Under the pieces are notes generated by a model that did no database searches, was not told the origin of the DNA, and saw only the letters and a program-made list of their open reading frames with translations. A stretch of DNA of 64,000 bases from Theionarchaea archaeon (GTDB taxonomy: Archaea > Methanobacteriota_B > Thermococci > Methanofastidiosales > SZ-28-30). Below are positions 4,735 to 60,843 of this stretch, one piece after another. The stretch covers positions 1-64,000 of the forward strand of contig JACVGT010000001.1 of the NCBI GenBank assembly GCA_018992685.1, given 5' to 3'. Made by a program: the position numbers and the translations under genes. The stretch's first letter is position 1, and the number at the start of each line of letters is the position of its first letter.

Positions 4735-5210
4735 CTACTTTCGTATGTTAACTACGCTGGCATAGGTGGCTTTTTGCAGTTCCATGGGTGATAGTCTGAT
4801 GAGAGAGGTTTCGCTCCCCCCTCCACCGTATACACTTTCCTTTTCCATGACTGCAGGATCAATGAGAACGGTGGCTCCGAACCCGAAGGGAGGAACACCA
4901 CCAGCAGGATATCCCGTTATTTCCAGCACTCCTCAGGTTTTGCCATCCGGAGGGATTCACCCGATACTCCCATTGCTTCAGCCACACGGGAGGTACTGAT
5001 TCTGTGGGTTCCCTTGACGATTGCCACAATCACGTTCCCTTCTCGATCTATCATGCACATGCTCTTGATAAAATCATCAGGAGAAGCATGTACTGCCTGT
5101 GCTGCCTCTGTGACAGAATGGCATGATTCGGAGAATCTCAGATGCTTTCCTTTGATATGGTGTTCCTTCAGGTAGGCCTTTATCTTTTCTTCACATTGAT
5201 GGTGAGTGAT
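4735..5210 (-). pseudogene. ybaK: broken YbaK/ProX-type aminoacyl-tRNA deacylase
   Basis: YbaK proteins hydrolyse mischarged tRNA. Family signatures are intact in two frames. The first part covers HHIKGKHLRFSESCHSVTEA and CMIDREGNVIVAIVKGTHR. The second covers LEITGYPAGGVPPFGFG and VYGGGGSETSLIRLSP. They meet at about 4927-4934, where PEE is followed by a one-base deficit that gives TGCTGGAAATAA instead of continuing VLEITGY. In addition, the place where the start codon should stand, right after AGGTGATCGC, reads ATC and no ATG/GTG/TTG is in frame. Two independent lesions favour a pseudogene over a sequencing error. It directly follows the stop of the DinB-like gene. Confidence 0.75.
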
Positions 5211-43355: not shown

Positions 43356-44219
43356 TTAGCGTCTTCTGTATAGTGCTGCAGATCCAAACAATACGAGCAT
43401 GAAAACAAGGGTAGTTCCTAAACAGGATCCACCGTTGTCAACTTCGCAGGTGACTGTGTCCTGAGCTTCCGGTGTGCTTGACGCGTATCCCTCAGCCAGT
43501 ATGGTGTGGTTGCCGTCAGAATAGTCAGTCGTATCCCAGCTGTACTGGAAGGGTGCTGTGTAGTCAGTTCCCACGAGCGAGCCATCAATATAGAACCTTA
43601 CCTCTTCACAGTTGGTGTCTGTAGTTATTGTAACAGTATCAGACACAACCTCACCATCAGATGGGTTGGTGATGGTAAGATAGTATTCGATGACATTGTC
43701 CACGGTGACGGTAACAGAGTCGGTGTCTTCCAAGGTACCAGATACGTATCCCTCAACCATTATGGTGTGGTTACCATCAGGGTAGGCTGTCGTGTCCCAG
43801 GTGTACTGGAAGGGTGACGATGTATCATCATACACGAAAGTGCCATCAATGTAGAACCTCACTTCATCGCAGTTGGTGTCTACTGTAATGATGACAGTTC
43901 CTGAAACTGTTGACCCATTGGGTGGATTGGTAATGGTAATGTAGTACGTGATGTTTTCCACCGTGACGGTAACAGAATCACTGTCTTCCAAGGTACCTGA
44001 TACGTATCCCTCAGCCAGTATGGTGTGGGTTCCATTGGAATATCCAGTGGTGTCCCAGGTGTAATCGAATGGTGATGCTGTATCATCCTTCACCAGAGTG
44101 CCGTCAATGTAGAACTTCACTTCATCGCAGTTGGTGTCTGTGGTAACGCTGACTGTTCCAGAAACAGTGGACCCGTTGGCTGGATTCGTAATGGTAACGT
44201 AGTAGCTGATGTTGTCCAC
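43356..44219 (-). pseudogene. 3' part of the C25 protease gene: three Ig-like repeats and surface-sorting tail
   Basis: 287 codons in a frame separated from the main protease by two deletions. They encode three complete Big_7-like Ig repeats (each with VTITNPxxGSTVSGTV, FYIDGTLV, YTWDTTGYSNGTHTI) and end EVDNGGSCLGTTLVFMLVLF followed by YRRR, a tripartite cell-surface signal like that at 39.2 kb. No start codon with a ribosome binding site belongs to it, so in the present sequence it is not translated separately. Together with 44236-46676 it was clearly one gene. Confidence 0.8.
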
Positions 44220-44935
44220 GGTGACGGTAACAGAGTCAGTGTCTTATGGTGTGGGTTCCATCAGAGTACGCTGTGGTGTCCCAGGTGTAATCGAATGGTG
44301 ATGCTGTATCATCCTTCACCAGAGTCCCGTCAATGTAGAACTTCACTTCATCGCAGTTGGTGTCTGTGGTAACGCTGACTGTTCCAGAAACAGTGGACCC
44401 GTTGGCTGGATTCGTAATGGTAACGTAGTAGCTGATGTTGTCCACGGTGACGGTAACAGAGTCAGTGTCTGAGCCAGAATGGTGTGGCTGCCGTTGGAAT
44501 ATCCAGTGGTGTCCCAGGTGTAATCGAATGGTGATGCTGTATCATCCTTCACCAGGGTGCCGTCAATGTAGAATTTCACTTCATCGCAGTTGGTGTTTGT
44601 GGTAACGCTGACTGTTCCAGCAACAGTTTCTCCTTCTGAGGGGTTCGTAATGGTAACGTAGTAGACGACATTATCCACGGTGACAGTAACAGAATCACTG
44701 TCTTTCAATATACCTGACACGTATCCCTCAGCCAGTATGGTGTGGTTCCCATTGGAATATCCAGTGGTGTCCCAGGTGTAATCGAATGGTGATGATGTAT
44801 CATCCTTCACCAGGGTGCCGTCAATGTAGAACTTCACTTCATTGATTGATCCTGTTGTGTACGTGGTAACGCTAACTGTTCCAGATACAACTTCCCCTTC
44901 GTTCGGGCTCGTAATGGTCACTGTGTCCTGTACTC
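43435..44935 (-). repeat. six tandem Ig-like (Big_7) repeats, about 86-89 codons each
   Basis: Six copies of a unit with SGTVSVTT, CDEVKFYIDGTLVKDD, FDYTWDTT and GNHTILAEGYVSG. Copies two and three (about 44468-44678 and 44246-44463) each lack about 25 and 32 bases at the same place, between HTI and DSVTVTV. The missing stretch contains the palindromes GATACGTATC and GGTACC. The others are complete. Confidence 0.85.
44236..44445 (-). pseudogene. middle fragment of the C25 protease gene: one truncated Ig-like repeat
   Basis: 70 codons forming most of one repeat, cut off after THTI where about 32 bases present in the other copies are missing (near 44238-44248), which shifts the frame. Nucleotide identity with the neighbouring repeats is visibly very high, so recombination, replication slippage or misassembly could all explain it. 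Confidence 0.75.
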
Positions 44936-53851: not shown

Positions 53852-54370
53852 CTAGTGATCATCTAATTCTATTAGAATCTTAAAAAGGGCAGAAGGTATC
53901 TTTCCGTTGAATTGTACGAATTTCTTCCCACAGAAATCAATGTCCCAGGGAATAAAACAGTGAAACCCGGAATGTGAATAAGGCATAATCTTCCCTTCTG
54001 TTGAGGTAATGGTGACTTCAATATGAGGATAATAGTCGAATCTGATGAAGTCATTATAGGATGGTTCGGGAACTTCAACTTCATAGAAATCAGTAAAATT
54101 CGCCATCAGATTATCAATGAGTTCTGGATCAATATTCTTACCCGTATCGGAGAAATATCCTGCATTTTTGCGTGTTATTGTATAGTACTTATCATCCTTC
54201 CCCGGAAAGTACACAACTCCATAATATATTTCAATCTTCTCAACAGTAGCAAGCTCTTCTCTAATTTTTGTCACAGGGAAGAATGATCCTTGTTGAATCA
54301 GAGAGAGCACCACAATAACTGCAATACATGCCCTGAGAGCATTCGTACAACAAGTAAAATACCCTGGCAT
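53852..54370 (-). CDS. exported or membrane-anchored protein of unknown function
   Basis: 172 residues if it starts at the ATG at 54370, where a hydrophobic N-terminal segment (RACIAVIVVLSLIQQ) begins. The longer frame upstream to 54658 runs through the promoter and peptide gene of the opposite strand and is not credible. The remaining 140 residues look like a small extracellular domain (KIEIYYGVVYFPGKDDKYYT, FIPWDIDFCGKKF). Not recognised. It is divergent to the RiPP-like cluster. Confidence 0.55.
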   Translation of the reverse strand: MPGYFTCCTNALRACIAVIVVLSLIQQGSFFPVTKIREELATVEKIEIYYGVVYFPGKDDKYYTITRKNAGYFSDTGKNIDPELIDNLMANFTDFYEVEVPEPSYNDFIRFDYYPHIEVTITSTEGKIMPYSHSGFHCFIPWDIDFCGKKFVQFNGKIPSALFKILIELDDH

Positions 54371-54489
54371 AAAAGGACTTTCTGAAGAACTTAAGGATAT
54401 GTGAGTCTGTGACAGATTCTGTAAACCGTATCTCCCCTTACTTCTACTACTAATCTCGCTACCTATTACATCACAATGTGGACAGAAAG

Positions 54490-54498
54490 ATTTATAAG
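54490..54498 (+). promoter_or_regulatory. TATA box of the peptide cluster
   Basis: ATTTATAAG, 57 bases before the peptide ATG. Start expected near 54518 with a leader of about 37 bases containing GAGGTGATAAA. Confidence 0.55.
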
Positions 54499-54554
54499 CA
54501 CGCGAAAAGAGAGGTAAGTATTTCTGAATAGGACATAGACAAAGAGGTGATAAA

Positions 54555-54665
54555 ATGATGAAAACGTGGATAGATCCGTTAGCCCAAAAGATGGAAGGAG
54601 CAGAAATTGATCCATTGGGAGTCTCAAAGTGTTCATGCGGTTGTGACCCCACGCTCATTCCATAG
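54555..54665 (+). CDS. 36-residue cysteine-containing RiPP precursor peptide
   Basis: A short gene with a good ribosome binding site (AGAGGTGATAAA) and its own TATA box. The first 25 residues look like a leader (MMKTWIDPLAQKMEGAEIDP) in which a DPL motif occurs twice. The last part, SKCSCGCDPTLIP, has cysteines at 26, 28 and 30, a dense pattern like substrates of thioether-forming radical SAM enzymes. It is followed by a T-run and then by four maturation-type genes including a PqqD-like recognition protein. No homologue comes to mind. Confidence 0.8.
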   Translation: MMKTWIDPLAQKMEGAEIDPLGVSKCSCGCDPTLIP

Positions 54666-54685
54666 GAATATTTCTCGCAGAACTA

Positions 54686-54706
54686 TTTCATTTTTTTTAT
54701 TTTTTT
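54686..54706 (+). terminator. T-rich, probably leaky terminator after the peptide gene
   Basis: TTTCATTTTTTTTATTTTTT follows the peptide stop by about 20 bases and ends just before the ribosome binding site of the next gene. It would favour peptide message over enzyme message. The same arrangement occurs at 40.7 kb. Confidence 0.5.
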
Positions 54707-54722
54707 GTGGGAAGGGAATACT

Positions 54723-55694
54723 ATGAATGGAAGTAACAAGAAAATAGACGTTCGGGAGATAGTCATTGCTCTGAGAAGAGCAAAGATTTTTATTGCGAGG
54801 ATAATCTATACTCACAGGAATCTCCTAGAGTATTACCCTGCACACATTTCAGCGCTATTTTGTTATGCAAGACTATTGGACATCGTAGTACCGCGCGATA
54901 TAGACGAAAGCTTCGAAAAATTCATGCTTGAGAATCTCAACCGTAACTATGAGAGAATGTCTTTCTTGGACATTTTTTGGGGAATTTCCTACTTCAGTTT
55001 AAAAGGATATGGGTCCGGGAAATTGAGTGAATTCATTGAGCAGATTTTTTCTTTTCAAAATGAGAATGGTGGAATCGGATCTCACAGAGGAGATATAGGC
55101 AGAATTCCTCACACAGGAAGATTCTTGACCGCACTTCTTTCTACAGAATATGAGAGTGAAGATCTTTTCAAGTCCCATGAACAAAAAATCTTGAAGGCAT
55201 GTGATTTTCTAATTACTGAATGGAGCAAGGACGTTTCATCAGGAAATGCCCTGTCTCACAAGGGTGCAGCGGTATTGAGTGGTCTCTCCAAGTGTTCAGA
55301 AGTGAATCTGGGAATACAGGGGTTAGACCAACAAATAGTGGATACGATAAGAGTGCTTCTGGATCTGCAGATTCAAAACGGTGCCTGGACATTTCTCACG
55401 AAACAGACTGATGACAGGATTTCACTGGAATTGTCAGCCCCTAACATAACTGCTATGGTAGTGCGCTCGCTAAGCGAGGCATACCTTAAGGAAAAAGGTA
55501 ATGAAGCGCCCAAAATGAGTGAAGAACTCTCAAGGGATGTACTCCTGGCAATTGAGAGAGGGAGCAAGTACCTTTGTGAAACTCAAAGCGAATTTGGGTT
55601 TTGGCCTGCTAGTAACAGTGGAGATCTATCCGTTTTTGCCGGGGAGAGCGCATTGGCGTTGAAACCGGCTTTGGAGGTTCTTGAAGATGGGTAG
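54723..55694 (+). CDS. alpha-toroid (terpene-cyclase/prenyltransferase-repeat-like) protein
   Basis: 323 residues, start ATG at 54723 after GGAAGGGAA. It is helical throughout with repeats of the QxxxGxW/QNExGGIG type seen in squalene cyclases, protein prenyltransferase beta subunits and related alpha-toroids (FSFQNENGGIGSHRGDIG, LDLQIQNGAWTF, CETQSEFGFWPASNSG). I see no DxDD or zinc-ligand set, so an ordinary cyclase or prenyltransferase reaction is doubtful. It could act as a binding or modifying enzyme on the peptide. It overlaps the next gene by 8 bases. Confidence 0.75.
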   Translation: MNGSNKKIDVREIVIALRRAKIFIARIIYTHRNLLEYYPAHISALFCYARLLDIVVPRDIDESFEKFMLENLNRNYERMSFLDIFWGISYFSLKGYGSGKLSEFIEQIFSFQNENGGIGSHRGDIGRIPHTGRFLTALLSTEYESEDLFKSHEQKILKACDFLITEWSKDVSSGNALSHKGAAVLSGLSKCSEVNLGIQGLDQQIVDTIRVLLDLQIQNGAWTFLTKQTDDRISLELSAPNITAMVVRSLSEAYLKEKGNEAPKMSEELSRDVLLAIERGSKYLCETQSEFGFWPASNSGDLSVFAGESALALKPALEVLEDG

Positions 55695-56895
55695 TAGAGT
55701 ATCTGAATATGAAAAGGCCATATCCAGTATCGTGGAAAGGAAATATGAGGATAAGAGAGTTTTTTCTGTGCAGTGGCATATAACTGATCATTGCAACCTG
55801 GCATGCAAGCACTGCTATTCCAGCAACAATTCGATAAGGGATCTACCATTGAATGTACTCAAGGCTATCTTTGATAAGTATCTGAAAGCCATACTCAAAT
55901 GGGGTGTGGAAGGGTATCTTAGCCTGACCGGAGGAGAGGCAATTCTGCGGAGTGATTTCTTTGAACTTCTTGACTTCATACATGCAAGATGGGAAGAACA
56001 CCCAGTTTTTGTTGTGAGCTTGATGTCAAATGGGACTCTTATCGATGAAGAACGTGTCTCTCATCTGAAAGAGTACTTGCCCATGTTGTCGCATGTTCAA
56101 ATCAGTCTGGATGGTGTTAACGAAGAGACACACGACTTCTTACGAGGAGAAGGGTCCTTTTCGAGAAGCAAGAAGGGCTTTTCCTTGTTGCGTGAGGGTG
56201 GGTTCACCACTGCATTGCACTATGTGGTGCACAAAGGAAATTACAGAGATGCTTTCAACATACTGGAGCTGGGAGATGAACTCAAAGTAATCAGGGTCAC
56301 CTTATCAAGGCTGGTCCCCGAGGGCGGAGGGAAAACTTTGGAAATGCTAGCACCTTCCGAACTAAGGGATTTATGGGACTATCTGGGCAGCAGATGTTTG
56401 GATTACTACCCAAAGGGAGTCTTCTTGGCAAGGGGCAGGTGTGATCTGTGGCACCTCCCAGACATAGCTTCTGCCTTATACTCCCTGAAGTTGAACTCAC
56501 AGGGAAATGCATTTCCTGCACTATACAGGGTTGGTCAGAGATGTCCTGTAGGGCTCAATGGACTCGCCGTGGATACGGACGGGACCGTCTATCCTTGCAG
56601 AAGACTGCCCATTTCAGTAGGGAACATCGTCCAGGATACATTTTTCAAAATATGGTATAGCTCCAGACTTCTATGGAAATTCAGGCACAAGGAAGAATAC
56701 ATGAAAGGAAAGTGCCGTGATTGCCCGTTTCTCACTGATACACAGTTGAGAACCTTGTGTGCTGGAGGCAGTCCCTGCATTTCCTATGGTAATTGTGGAG
56801 ATTGCTTTGAGCCCGATCCGCAATGCTGGTTTGATCCGTACTCGGAGGAACAGAGAGAGGAGGTGGAAAAATGGAGAAAAAGGATCCTAGAATGA
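55687..56895 (+). CDS. radical SAM/SPASM peptide maturase
   Basis: 402 residues, ATG at 55687 after GGAGG and overlapping the preceding stop. Radical SAM cluster in ITDHCNLACKHCYSS with cysteines 36, 40 and 43, SAM-binding SLTGGEAILRSDFF, and a cysteine-rich SPASM region (RCPVGLNGLAVDTDGTVYPC, GKCRDCPF, LCAGGSPCISYGNCGDC). These carry two auxiliary Fe-S clusters and modify peptides (thioether or C-C bonds). The natural substrate is probably the peptide at 54555. Coupled to the PqqD-like gene by a 25-base overlap. Confidence 0.93.
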   Translation: MGSRVSEYEKAISSIVERKYEDKRVFSVQWHITDHCNLACKHCYSSNNSIRDLPLNVLKAIFDKYLKAILKWGVEGYLSLTGGEAILRSDFFELLDFIHARWEEHPVFVVSLMSNGTLIDEERVSHLKEYLPMLSHVQISLDGVNEETHDFLRGEGSFSRSKKGFSLLREGGFTTALHYVVHKGNYRDAFNILELGDELKVIRVTLSRLVPEGGGKTLEMLAPSELRDLWDYLGSRCLDYYPKGVFLARGRCDLWHLPDIASALYSLKLNSQGNAFPALYRVGQRCPVGLNGLAVDTDGTVYPCRRLPISVGNIVQDTFFKIWYSSRLLWKFRHKEEYMKGKCRDCPFLTDTQLRTLCAGGSPCISYGNCGDCFEPDPQCWFDPYSEEQREEVEKWRKRILE

Positions 56896-57140
56896 GAGAG
56901 AACTTGTTCGTTATAAACGAAGAAGGAAGATACGTAGTCTTCGATCCAGAAGAGGGAGATCAGTGGAAACTGAACGAAACAGGAGCCCTGATTGTGGATT
57001 GCCTGATGCAAGGAGCCTCAATGGAAGACATAAAAAGTAAAATAATGGAAGAATATGATATAGATTCGGAAAAAGCGGAGGAATCGTTGAACAAATATAT
57101 AGAAGTGCTCAAGAAAGAGGGAATTATTCTGGAGGATTGA
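56871..57140 (+). CDS. PqqD-like RiPP recognition element protein
   Basis: 89 residues with the PqqD fold pattern: beta strands (NLFVINEEGRYVVFDPEEG), then the WKLNETGALIVDCLMQG helix and a helical tail. Stand-alone PqqD proteins bind the leader peptide and present it to the radical SAM enzyme. RBS GGAGGTGGAAAA. It lies between two radical SAM genes and could serve both. Its presence is the best evidence that the 36-residue peptide is a RiPP substrate. Confidence 0.9.
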   Translation: MEKKDPRMRENLFVINEEGRYVVFDPEEGDQWKLNETGALIVDCLMQGASMEDIKSKIMEEYDIDSEKAEESLNKYIEVLKKEGIILED

Positions 57141-57175
57141 ATGAAGGTGTTTGAAAGGAGGGATGGTACATTAGA

Positions 57176-58810
57176 TTGGCTAGAATTGAGGTAGATTCTC
57201 CATGTAATAACCGCTGTATTCACTGTCTCACCGGAAGGAGAGAGCAGAAAGACGTCATAGGATGTGAAGAACAGATCAAGAGGGCTCACAATGAAAAAAA
57301 AGATGGGATCGTCATATTGGGGGGAGAACCAACCCTGAGAGGGGATATTCTTGATATCGTCTCCTGTGCCAGAGAGATCGGGTTCAAGAGAATAAACCTC
57401 ATAACGAATGCGAGGACCCTTTCAAACAGGGAGTTTGCCGGTAACCTGATACGCGTAGGAATTTCTGATTTTGTGGTAAAACTGTGGGGAGCCAGAAGGG
57501 AGGTTCATGACAAGATAACTGGAGCGAAAGGGAGTTTTGAACAAACAGTGAGCGGAATAAAGAATATTGTGTCCCTCAAGGGTGAAGGAGTTATTATGGG
57601 ATATTCAGGAATACTCATGGAGAATTACGTGTCGTTAGCTGAGCTGATACAGCTTTTTGCCGATCTCCGTGTAAGATGGGTACGGTTGAGGCTGCCCCCA
57701 GTGGAAGATGCACTCATCCCTCTGACCCAGGAAACCATGAAGTACATCTACAGTGCCATAGAGACTGCCAACAGACTGAATGTTGGTCTGGAGATAGAGA
57801 ACATTCCCTTCTGTTTCATGAGAGGCTATGAAGATTATGTATACATTTCCACAACGCGCAAAGACAGACTGGAAGATTGTGATTTCTTGGACTTTGTCAA
57901 GGTCGAACAACACGATGGCAAAACAAAAGTGCCCGAGTGCAACCAATGCAAGTACTCTTTTCTTTGTGGCGGAGTTTGGAACAAGTATCTGGAAAAAGAC
58001 TCTGTATGTGAAGTCAATCCAGTTGAAAACATGGGAGAATCGAGAATGCTCCAGAGAATTGATGACCTGATAGGTAAAGAAGGGCTGTTTCATCCACTGG
58101 TGGAGAGCGGAGAAGTGCCCGAAGGACTTCGAGCAGATGCTATTGTCCACTTCAGCGGCGGCATTGATTCTACAGTAGCAGCAGGAATATATGCCAGCAG
58201 AAACAAGGAGAGAAAAGTGGTGCTCGTTACATATTGTCATCAAGGTCTGCTGAATGTAAATAGCTCGAGAGTCAACGGCTCATATCTCATGGAGAAATAC
58301 CCCAATATAGTGGCACACCTCCACATCTCTCTCCTGCAGGAGCTGTATGTTCCCCTTTGCTTTGGCAGGGATTACAAAGAACACGCCATGAGGCTGTCGG
58401 GAAATTACGGATGCATAGCCTGCAAGCTCCTGATGTATGCTTACTCTGTATTTCTGCAAACTGCTTACTTCAAGGGAGACACCATTATTTCCGGAAATAA
58501 CCTAACCATAATTCCAGACAGAGGGGGTCACCCGATACCACAGATGCCGGAGGTAGTGACCCTCATCAAGGACTTTGTAGGTGAGTATGGCATGGCATGT
58601 GTCAATCCTGTCTACGCTGTGTCGAGCAAGCAAAGGATTGTACTCTTGGCAGAAACGATGGGCCTTCCGGCCACCAGCATGTTTCAATCCAAGTGCATCC
58701 TGGGGGTTCCAATTCTCTGTAAGGATATGGAACCCGTGGTTCAATTCTTAAGAGAGAGAATTCTGCCGATTCTTCGAAATGTATTGACAGCCAACATGAA
58801 GAGGCTGTAG
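57176..58810 (+). CDS. radical SAM protein fused to a PP-loop ATP pyrophosphatase
   Basis: About 544 residues. Residues 1-290: radical SAM domain with DSPCNNRCIHC (Cys 10, 14, 17), GGEPTLRGDILD, and an auxiliary-cluster region with cysteines near 235, 255, 258, 264 and 278 (ECNQCKYSFLCGG). Residues 320-544: a PP-loop domain with AIVHFSGGIDSTVAAGIY at 323-340, which adenylates substrates, plus a cysteine pair CIACKLL. The combination could activate and modify a peptide carboxyl or thiolate. The start is uncertain: TTG at 57176 is 14 bases from the GGAGG, while an in-frame ATT at 57170 is at the normal distance. Confidence 0.88.
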   Translation: MARIEVDSPCNNRCIHCLTGRREQKDVIGCEEQIKRAHNEKKDGIVILGGEPTLRGDILDIVSCAREIGFKRINLITNARTLSNREFAGNLIRVGISDFVVKLWGARREVHDKITGAKGSFEQTVSGIKNIVSLKGEGVIMGYSGILMENYVSLAELIQLFADLRVRWVRLRLPPVEDALIPLTQETMKYIYSAIETANRLNVGLEIENIPFCFMRGYEDYVYISTTRKDRLEDCDFLDFVKVEQHDGKTKVPECNQCKYSFLCGGVWNKYLEKDSVCEVNPVENMGESRMLQRIDDLIGKEGLFHPLVESGEVPEGLRADAIVHFSGGIDSTVAAGIYASRNKERKVVLVTYCHQGLLNVNSSRVNGSYLMEKYPNIVAHLHISLLQELYVPLCFGRDYKEHAMRLSGNYGCIACKLLMYAYSVFLQTAYFKGDTIISGNNLTIIPDRGGHPIPQMPEVVTLIKDFVGEYGMACVNPVYAVSSKQRIVLLAETMGLPATSMFQSKCILGVPILCKDMEPVVQFLRERILPILRNVLTANMKRL

Positions 58811-58855
58811 AACCAGTCATAGTGGGAGAAGAGGCTGTTGCTGATAGTGGTAGTT

Positions 58856-58889
58856 CCTCAGGAGCGAGTCAGATTCTCTGATCCTGAGG
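58856..58889. terminator. inverted repeat between convergent genes
   Basis: CCTCAGGA at 58856-58863 pairs with TCCTGAGG at 58882-58889 around an 18-base loop. It lies between the rSAM/PP-loop gene and the end of the leftward gene whose stop is at 58869, so it may end both transcripts. Confidence 0.45.
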
Positions 58890-60695
58890 AGCAAGTTCCC
58901 TTCTCCATGCTTCTACTATTGAAATAATAGTGTGCATATCCTTGTCATAGTACACCAGTCCGGCTTCTCTTAGGGTGTTGAGTGTTTCAAGAAGATCTTC
59001 TTCTTTCTTGTGCTTGAATTTCTGTTTTACTTGGCGCAAGGTCTTAATTGAATCGCAAAAAACCAGAAGGTCTGTCTCGTCGCGGTCCAGCACATATGTA
59101 CAGGTGCTCGATCCCTTTTCCTCAATGAAAGAACCATCCTCATACTCAATCCAGATATAAGAGCAATTCTCTTGTACATAAGATTTCATCATCATTTCAA
59201 AGTCATCCCACAGGGCATGATGAGGTCTTTCCCTGTGAAAACCGGAGAACTCAAATCTATCAGAGACTGGCACGAGACCAGTGGGATGGATTTCAGCCCA
59301 GAATTGGTCGAAATTCCAATCTTTTCTCTCTTCTTCTGACATCTCATCATAAAATACAGATCCTTTGTATAGGACAAAAGGAATCAGATTGAGAGCATGA
59401 GTCCTGAGGAGAAATCGCAAGAACCTGAGATTGACGCAGCTTTCCAAGATATCCTCTTCCGTCTCTGTGGGAATTCCCTGCAATATGTTGAGATAGTCAA
59501 TTCTCAAATTATACTGACTGCCAAGTTTCAATGCCTGGATATTGTGAGCAAACCTGTGGCGTTTCTCCATTTTTCTTAGGAGTGAATCCGTGAGCGCCTC
59601 AAACCCAATCTGTAATGAGGTGAATGATGCAAAGCGAATGTACCTCCCTGTCTCGGAATCCAAGAAGATGGGAGATATTTCGCCGAAAAAATGGTACGGC
59701 TCTCTTCGACTTGCCGAAAGCTTTGATAAGGCTTTCAATAGGATTCTGAACCTTTTCTTATTCCCGGGAAATTCGTTATCCACAAAGATGAATGAATCAA
59801 TGTGGTGTCTATTTGATTGAAACCGTATTTCCTCAATGACATTCTCAGGCGATCGCGCATGATATGAATACTCTTCATTCAGGACACAGAATTTGCATTT
59901 GTTCCACGGACAAGACCTGCTTCCCCAGATAGGGATGAGAATTCGCATTTCGCGGGGTAAATATGTCCTCAGTGTACTAAAGTAGTCAGAATGATCTGCG
60001 AAAGGATACAAATCCAAATCAAGAAATTCACTGTTTTTCTGCGTAGAATGGGCAGTTGTGTCCTTCCGGTAGATGAGTTGTGGCACATCTCTGATGTCCG
60101 TGTTTTCTTCCAACGCCCTGGTCAGATAAAGGAGTGGAAATTCGCCTTCCCCCCAGATGGCAAAATCAGCCAGAGGGAAGAGGTTCATGAAAGAGTATCC
60201 CTGTGACTCGCTGCGGATTCCTCCAACAAGTATCTTGATCTCAGGATTCATTTCTTTCAGCCGGTGAATCAAATAGTAACTCATCATCCACTGTCGGGTC
60301 TTCAGGGTGAATCCAGCAAGAGTCGCCTTGTGGAGATTATTATCTCCAATATATTGGTCAATCTTGTCTTCAATTGAGGTTACGAGCTCTTCGATTTTCC
60401 CTTTGGGAAAAAAAGATGAGAAAAATACATCAAGTGGCGTTTTGTTGAAATTCCAATTATCTTTTATCAGCAAATGCTTGCATATGAGTACGGTGAAAAC
60501 ATAGAAAGGAGGTAATTTCGAGAGCATTGGAAGATCTTTCATTATTCTTCCATATTTCATTATTTCTTGGAACAAGATTAGGTTCCAGTACACATTCTGC
60601 ACGTTGATTCCTTTTGCTTCAAGAAATCCTTTTAGGTATCCTAGTGCGGGATTCGAAATGTCCCATCTATATGGAGGCATGCAATTCAAAATCAC
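58869..60695 (-). CDS. B12-type radical SAM protein, RiPP C-methyltransferase-like
   Basis: 608 residues, GTG start after GGAGGG. Residues 1-200 form a cobalamin-binding-type domain (ISNPALGYLKGFLEAKG, ILVGGIRSES, FAIWGEGEFPLLY). The radical SAM cysteines are 262, 267 and 270 in SRSCPWNKCKFCVLNEEYSY, which resembles the CPWG...C.FCGLN motif of the RiPP maturation radical SAM C-methyltransferase group. Those enzymes methylate unactivated carbons in peptides. Convergent with the peptide cluster but with its own TATA (GCTTTATAAG at 60731-60740). Probably part of the same pathway. Confidence 0.85.
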   Translation of the reverse strand: MILNCMPPYRWDISNPALGYLKGFLEAKGINVQNVYWNLILFQEIMKYGRIMKDLPMLSKLPPFYVFTVLICKHLLIKDNWNFNKTPLDVFFSSFFPKGKIEELVTSIEDKIDQYIGDNNLHKATLAGFTLKTRQWMMSYYLIHRLKEMNPEIKILVGGIRSESQGYSFMNLFPLADFAIWGEGEFPLLYLTRALEENTDIRDVPQLIYRKDTTAHSTQKNSEFLDLDLYPFADHSDYFSTLRTYLPREMRILIPIWGSRSCPWNKCKFCVLNEEYSYHARSPENVIEEIRFQSNRHHIDSFIFVDNEFPGNKKRFRILLKALSKLSASRREPYHFFGEISPIFLDSETGRYIRFASFTSLQIGFEALTDSLLRKMEKRHRFAHNIQALKLGSQYNLRIDYLNILQGIPTETEEDILESCVNLRFLRFLLRTHALNLIPFVLYKGSVFYDEMSEEERKDWNFDQFWAEIHPTGLVPVSDRFEFSGFHRERPHHALWDDFEMMMKSYVQENCSYIWIEYEDGSFIEEKGSSTCTYVLDRDETDLLVFCDSIKTLRQVKQKFKHKKEEDLLETLNTLREAGLVYYDKDMHTIISIVEAWRRELAPQDQRI

Positions 60696-60843
60696 GTGGA
60701 ACCCTCCTAAGTAGCTGGAGTTCCCTTTCTCTTATAAAGCTTTGTTCTATAGAAGTACTTCTGATTCTAAGGGAATGCTTTGAAGAAGTGGCTTGTCAGT
60801 CTGCTAGCCCAATAATCCTGCGCAAGGGAATTTTCTCTGGGAG

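Follow-up and report, generated by a model that had tools for sequence, protein, structure and literature searches.

A probable archaeal RiPP cluster with a radical SAM/PP-loop ATPase fusion and a possible role for it in peptide thiolation

What does a Theionarchaea archaeon make with a short cysteine-rich peptide gene that is followed by a row of enzyme genes, one of which joins a radical S-adenosylmethionine (SAM) domain to a PP-loop ATPase? The genes lie in a stretch of 64,000 nucleotides (contig JACVGT010000001.1, positions 1 to 64,000; hereafter the window), in which five rightward genes at 54555-58810 are followed by one convergent gene. An earlier note on this DNA had proposed that the six genes serve a ribosomally synthesized and post-translationally modified peptide (RiPP), and all six frames were found at the positions given there. 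We consider that 54555-58810 is probably a RiPP cluster, judging from sequence comparisons, and that its new part is the radical SAM/PP-loop fusion.

The first gene (54555-54665, plus strand) encodes a predicted precursor peptide of 36 residues, MMKTWIDPLAQKMEGAEIDPLGVSKCSCGCDPTLIP, with a leader-like beginning (MMKTWID...) and the core KCSCGCDPTLIP. In the same frame, 57 bases behind it, lies the gene of an alpha-toroid protein with a squalene-hopene-cyclase-like predicted fold (54723-55694, plus strand, 323 residues); its start is most likely ATG 54723 rather than TTG 54705, the same form as in P0050 (323 residues). The radical SAM/SPASM enzyme (55681-56895, plus strand), with a CX3CX2C motif at residue 38, starts at TTG 55681 or ATG 55687, and the 8-base overlap with the toroid gene claimed earlier was found for the ATG, with 14 bases for the TTG. 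The claimed overlap of 25 bases between the SPASM gene and the gene of the PqqD-like protein (56871-57140, plus strand) was confirmed. After a gap of 35 bases comes the fusion (57176-58810, plus strand), in which radical SAM occupies residues 1 to about 265 and the PP-loop ATPase residues about 320-544; its TTG start at 57176 fits, because four of five near homologues begin MAR or MTR. The convergent gene (58869-60695, minus strand), 58 bases further on, encodes a B12-type radical SAM enzyme resembling RiPP C-methyltransferases.

As expected of a RiPP pathway, the short putative peptide gene stands directly before the enzyme genes and is preceded by a BRE (B recognition element)/TATA promoter-like motif, GAAAGATTTATAAG (54485-54498, plus strand, 70 bases upstream of the peptide start), and by a ribosome-binding site, GAGGTGAT (54544-54551, plus strand). 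The PqqD-like protein, the predicted leader-binding element, matched PF05402 with 59 bits against a cut-off of 23.4 (E 6e-16), and it exceeded the cut-off of one NCBIfam model, TIGR04353 (38.9 against 35 bits). The SPASM enzyme matched the Pfam families Radical_SAM (1.6e-22) and SPASM (2e-11); its best NCBIfam model was TIGR04340 of the ACGX system (150.4 bits, below the cut-off of 400), and none of the best 25 of 78 families was matched above its cut-off.

The RiPP reading is likely because loci of SPASM paralogues are enriched in Cys-rich small open reading frames (ORFs) with ribosome sites. Besides the window's own enzyme, ten close paralogues (38-42% identity) were found in eight loci of two genomes, G000 and G001, where 16 candidates per genome were scored out of the 44 and 68, respectively, of a first look. 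Eight of the ten lie in a locus with a fitting ORF, the exceptions being L025 and L031; with the ribosome-site filter the number is six of ten, as the candidate in L032 does not pass it. In a matched control with this filter, 131.8 kb of SPASM loci held seven Cys-rich small ORFs (five of eight loci) and 224.2 kb of other DNA in 12 stretches held two (in two stretches, one of them in the window at 5004). Without the filter the counts were 10 and 8, which speaks against the RiPP reading. The enrichment is thus real, although the ribosome-site filter and the near-duplicate peptides of L026 and L034 account for part of it. A looser filter gave four Cys-rich small ORFs in the window and three in six loci without a close SPASM paralogue (L024, L036 and L037). 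The window peptide itself was dropped at a gene cut-off of 150 residues, since a 268-residue antisense frame covers it, and passes at 300 residues. The control, which showed Cys-rich small ORFs to be frequent in ordinary DNA, slightly lowered our confidence in the RiPP cluster.

The candidate peptides also share a motif: K-x-W-x-[DG] is common to five of ten, the window's and four from paralogous loci, as against a mean of 0.12 in shuffles, which never reached five in 20000. The test came only after the motif had been noticed, the L032 peptide has an uncertain start, and three of the ten peptides, without the motif, are near-copies of each other.

Could the peptide be a chance frame? This explanation was set aside on the strength of the promoter motif, the ribosome site, a T-rich tract behind the gene and the paralogues, with the caveat that the promoter motif is generic and that Cys-rich small ORFs occur in control DNA too. 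GAAAGATTTATAAG is present once in the window and in nine exact copies in two genomes (about 5.8 Mb), where the reversed pattern has none. Four of the nine precede Cys-rich small peptides (the window's, one in L026 and two in L034), and five precede other genes, two of which encode ribosomal protein L21e (identified by Pfam in L050 and by likeness in L054); it is therefore a general strong promoter rather than a RiPP promoter. Both L21e and this type of promoter agree with an archaeal origin of the DNA. The tract (T8 A T7; 54691-54706, plus strand), between peptide and toroid genes, is unique in the window: no other 16-base stretch, on either strand, contains 15 or more T. It may act as a terminator and so give more peptide RNA than enzyme RNA.

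The earlier note would have taken a 36-residue frame that is not conserved, beside neighbours that are, as a refutation; direct search with the stop-to-stop peptide frame found no homologue. What was found is a single inferred frame. The annotation of the toroid homologue P0058 includes extra N-terminal residues. Shifted by one base, the DNA behind them must read C-x-x-[AV]-C-G-C-G-[AV]-[IT], and a stop is possible seven residues beyond the final Cys of C-G-C, as against six in the window. The encoded stretch stands about 83 bases ahead of the start of the toroid; in the window the distance is 87. With the window's composition, about 0.004 C-G-C are expected by chance per 35 codons and frame. 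Three N-terminal ends were inspected in both shifted frames, and only that of P0058 was long enough to reach the core; any conservation of the peptide rests on this one inferred frame. No protease or exporter was found among the eight window proteins scanned with Pfam, the wider surroundings lying outside that scan. The RiPP proposal has the ORF enrichment, promoter, ribosome site, PqqD match and C-G-C frame of P0058 in its favour.

What, then, would the fusion do? Its Pfam matches were Radical_SAM (1.4e-15) and, weakly, ThiI (0.0022) and QueC (0.035); the best NCBIfam model was HxsC4 (114 bits, cut-off 500), with none over cut-off among the best 25 of 38 families. A search returned 49 proteins: its own, five full-length near relatives (53-61% identity), the distant full-length fusion P0007 (664 residues, 28% identity) and 42 partial matches that align over 22-58% of the query. 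Among 115 genomes of the phylum, only its own contains the fusion (E <= 1e-40). All seven fusion sequences contain the PP-loop S327-G-G-x-D331-S-T as well as C413xxC416 and C507, a triad that resembles that of AANH [4Fe-4S] sulfur-transferases (TtcA/TtuA/CtaC type), in a comparison of their order and approximate spacing rather than a full alignment. Since P0007 keeps both motifs, the architecture is not confined to near relatives. The NcsA-like protein of the same genome has C129xxC132xxC135 and C224.

At the level of the fold, the PP-loop half is predicted to resemble YcfA, an enzyme of thioamide formation that acts on a purine nucleotide to give 6-thioguanine. The two differ in that identity is 18% and the solved YcfA chains are of 214-222 residues and without a radical SAM domain. 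Searched against the sequences in the PDB, the PP-loop half gave two chance-level matches only, and its profile aligned with three PP-loop proteins of its own genome (hhalign) only around the ATP motif. An anti-phage viperin was rejected, as the PADLOC pVip matches were partial and within the shared radical SAM core. A related system is CtaC, the AANH thioamide synthetase of closthioamide, which combines a PP-loop ATP site with three [4Fe-4S] cysteines, as predicted for the fusion, and acts on peptide-like amides (PMC6772006). Its substrate is a nonribosomal chain bound to a carrier protein, whereas the fusion adjoins a ribosomal peptide gene, and its C157-C284 spacing is 127 against 91 in the fusion (PMC6772006). 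Unlike CtaC, the AANH domain here is fused to a radical SAM enzyme.

The earlier note gave the PP-loop half no task. We propose that, within the RiPP pathway, it serves as an iron-sulfur sulfur-transferase and would introduce sulfur into the peptide, a thioamide or a similar group being formed; we hold this assignment to be a close call, just short of even. The peptide would be made in excess, owing to the strong promoter and a partial terminator in the T-rich tract; PqqD would bind the KTW-containing leader and present the core, and the SPASM enzyme would cross-link the CSCGC core by a thioether or other carbon-centred bond. The fusion would then adenylate a peptide carbonyl with ATP and exchange the oxygen for sulfide borne by a [4Fe-4S] cluster, with C413, C416 and C507 as ligands of the cluster, and the radical SAM half would make a second change of unspecified kind. 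The toroid may bind or further modify the peptide in its cavity, and the B12 enzyme, under its own promoter, may methylate carbon.

The B12 gene, with a TATA-like TTTATAAG at 60738 (minus strand) 43 bases upstream, matched Radical_SAM (6e-16) and, below cut-off, the Pfam B12-binding family (6.3e-05; 23.2 against 32.1 bits). Its likeness to RiPP C-methyltransferases holds over nearly the whole length of TIGR03975 (rSAM_ocin_1), at a score below the cut-off (175.6 against 281.85 bits); three paralogues of the window's B12 enzyme scored 156-178 bits, also below it. At E <= 1e-30, G000 has five copies and G001 four. Eight of the nine have another radical SAM gene (by family match or CX3CX2C) at a distance of up to about 1.3 kb, a count made without a random control in genomes rich in such genes; the contig of the ninth, 3.4 kb long, holds no other radical SAM gene. 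This proximity supports a probable role in RiPP pathways generally, not action on the window peptide.

The toroid, like the peptide, matched no Pfam family alone, and nine of ten members of the toroid alignment matched SQHop_cyclase_C weakly (best 6.5e-05). A toroid search returned 11 proteins: the window's, nine others of full length and a fragment. Of 61 genomes, one, the window's own, held a convincing copy, and G029 gave one weak partial match (4.4e-4, residues 108-168). The alpha-toroid fold of class II terpene cyclases is predicted for it, and DxDD, the catalytic motif of these enzymes, is absent from all ten sequences. Single-domain squalene-hopene-cyclase-like toroids (8pak, MstE) are 12-13% identical to the window toroid, which is without DxDD. 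A LanC-like cyclase was ruled out, since the ten toroids contain no CHG motif.

Several points count against the sulfur-transfer proposal. The model of the fusion has a mean predicted local distance difference test score (pLDDT) of 67.5, with residues 209-290 and 500-515, around C507, below 50, so that the closeness of C413, C416 and C507 in space is presumed. The comparison with YcfA is one of fold and overall identity. The motif spacings of P0007 are 96 and 81, compared with 82 and 91. Relatives of the fusion were not confirmed in two genome-contig scans and one viral-contig scan, nor were toroid relatives in a viral-contig scan. Weak Pfam matches to QueC occur in all seven fusion sequences (best 0.00021), as against ThiI in five of seven, and Asn_synthase matches weakly in one of seven. 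These matches favour the alternative that fares best, which we nevertheless regard as unlikely: the cluster is a RiPP cluster, and the PP-loop half performs amide, nitrile or ligation chemistry of a QueC- or synthetase-like kind instead of sulfur insertion. PP-loop enzymes are described as adenylating varied substrates (PMC6772006).

The distribution of the genes bears on a further alternative. Conserved co-occurrence of the six genes elsewhere, which the earlier note had proposed to look for, did not emerge: outside the window, the reported longest contigs of toroid and fusion homologues never coincide, even with fusions on contigs of 22.6 and 14.0 kb and toroids on contigs of 31.1 and 35.1 kb. 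For clusters with several contigs (P0054, P0055 and P0007), only the longest entered this comparison, and co-occurrence there may have escaped it. Toroid and fusion may not be obligate partners, and the six genes are unproven as a conserved unit. The note had also named a wide occurrence of the enzymes away from any peptide gene as a refutation, and on its conditions the outcome is mixed; SPASM relatives are common (37 of 115 phylum genomes at E <= 1e-25), whereas the toroid and fusion are rare. With no common contig reported for fusion and toroid relatives, and with YcfA and ThiI acting on nucleotides or tRNA, the fusion might thiolate or modify tRNA or a small molecule and adjoin an ordinary SPASM/PqqD cluster by chance or shared regulation. 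We rate this as quite unlikely, as the fusion gene follows that of PqqD at a distance of 35 bases and in the same direction, its radical SAM half best matches maturase-type HxsC models (below cut-offs), and the Pfam scan found no THUMP or other RNA-binding domain in it.

It is improbable that the locus is an ordinary ranthipeptide- or sactipeptide-type cluster, with toroid and fusion as accessories and no new class of chemistry. The SPASM enzyme and PqqD are of common kinds and thioether cross-linking suits Cys-rich cores, but the fused PP-loop has kept its ATP motif and Cys triad at 53-61% identity, which argues for retained activity. That the peptide gives rise to a small redox cofactor, like those of the pyrroloquinoline quinone (PQQ) and mycofactocin systems, rather than to a secreted bioactive peptide, has the logic of PqqD, radical SAM/SPASM and short peptide and the lack of an exporter among the scanned proteins behind it, yet is very improbable, given that the SPASM and PqqD genes fall well short of the cut-offs for PqqE, PqqD (TIGR03859) and mycofactocin and that the candidate peptides, varied within one genus, look less like a single cofactor source.

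Set beside known systems, sulfur transfer to the peptide would lead to an outcome like that of YcaO-TfuA thioamitide RiPPs, with sulfur in a ribosomal peptide. YcaO had no match in the window's own genome (91% complete), compared with 5 of 14 control genomes, and a sulfur-inserting fusion would therefore be a new RiPP route, YcaO being the usual enzyme. The catalytic fold of YcaO-TfuA is unrelated to that of the fusion. ACGX-system SPASM proteins (TIGR04340) and sacti/ranthipeptide maturases likewise pair a SPASM enzyme with a small Cys-containing peptide; the ACGX system differs in that the window peptide has no visible ACGX repeats and in the additional toroid and PP-loop fusion here. We suggest only tentatively that the locus represents, as the first case, a class of sulfur-containing RiPPs made without YcaO, in which a radical SAM/AANH fusion inserts sulfur into an archaeal peptide guided by its leader and cross-linked by radical chemistry, a terpene-cyclase-like toroid then handles this peptide and a B12 enzyme C-methylates it. 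If true, this would be a second enzymatic sulfur-for-oxygen route for ribosomal peptides, drawn from the superfamily whose members thiolate tRNA and form closthioamide, and one protein would combine this exchange with radical chemistry. In the open-licence literature searched, we found no paper joining radical SAM, PP-loop and RiPP, and none joining thioamide, AANH and RiPP. A radical SAM class of archaeal RiPPs is listed as predicted and recommended for further study in a 2025 paper on archaeal RiPPs (PMC12144867).

The paralogous loci suggest that radical SAM peptide loci are numerous and diverse in this archaeal genus. PqqD domains stand alone in L026, L030 and L035 and are fused to SPASM in L027. 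L026 (4155-4646) and L034 (5391-5872), SPASM radical SAM loci of one genome each, both contain two tandem peptide genes (MY...EI.EIS.EIDQCMCCA...), each with a GGTGAT ribosome site, which are likely duplicated precursors; L026 also has a PqqD gene. L027 (5962-15286) comprises a Cys-rich peptide, three genes of 454-493 residues (one radical SAM by Pfam), a PqqD-SPASM fusion and a B12 radical SAM enzyme 58% identical to that of the window. In L030 (6212-11456), behind a Cys-containing peptide ending VCCYNDTDGDYYCCIKTEVL come two radical SAM-like genes and the genes of a PqqD protein and a B12 radical SAM enzyme.

In the window, the frame antisense to the peptide (53852-54658, minus strand, 268 residues) looks like a real secreted protein in its C-terminal half, with an internal start near residue 97; the promoter region of the peptide therefore probably lies between two divergent genes. 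Elsewhere, two near-identical small frames at 44069-44146 and 44528-44605, 459 bases apart, suggest a repeated region.

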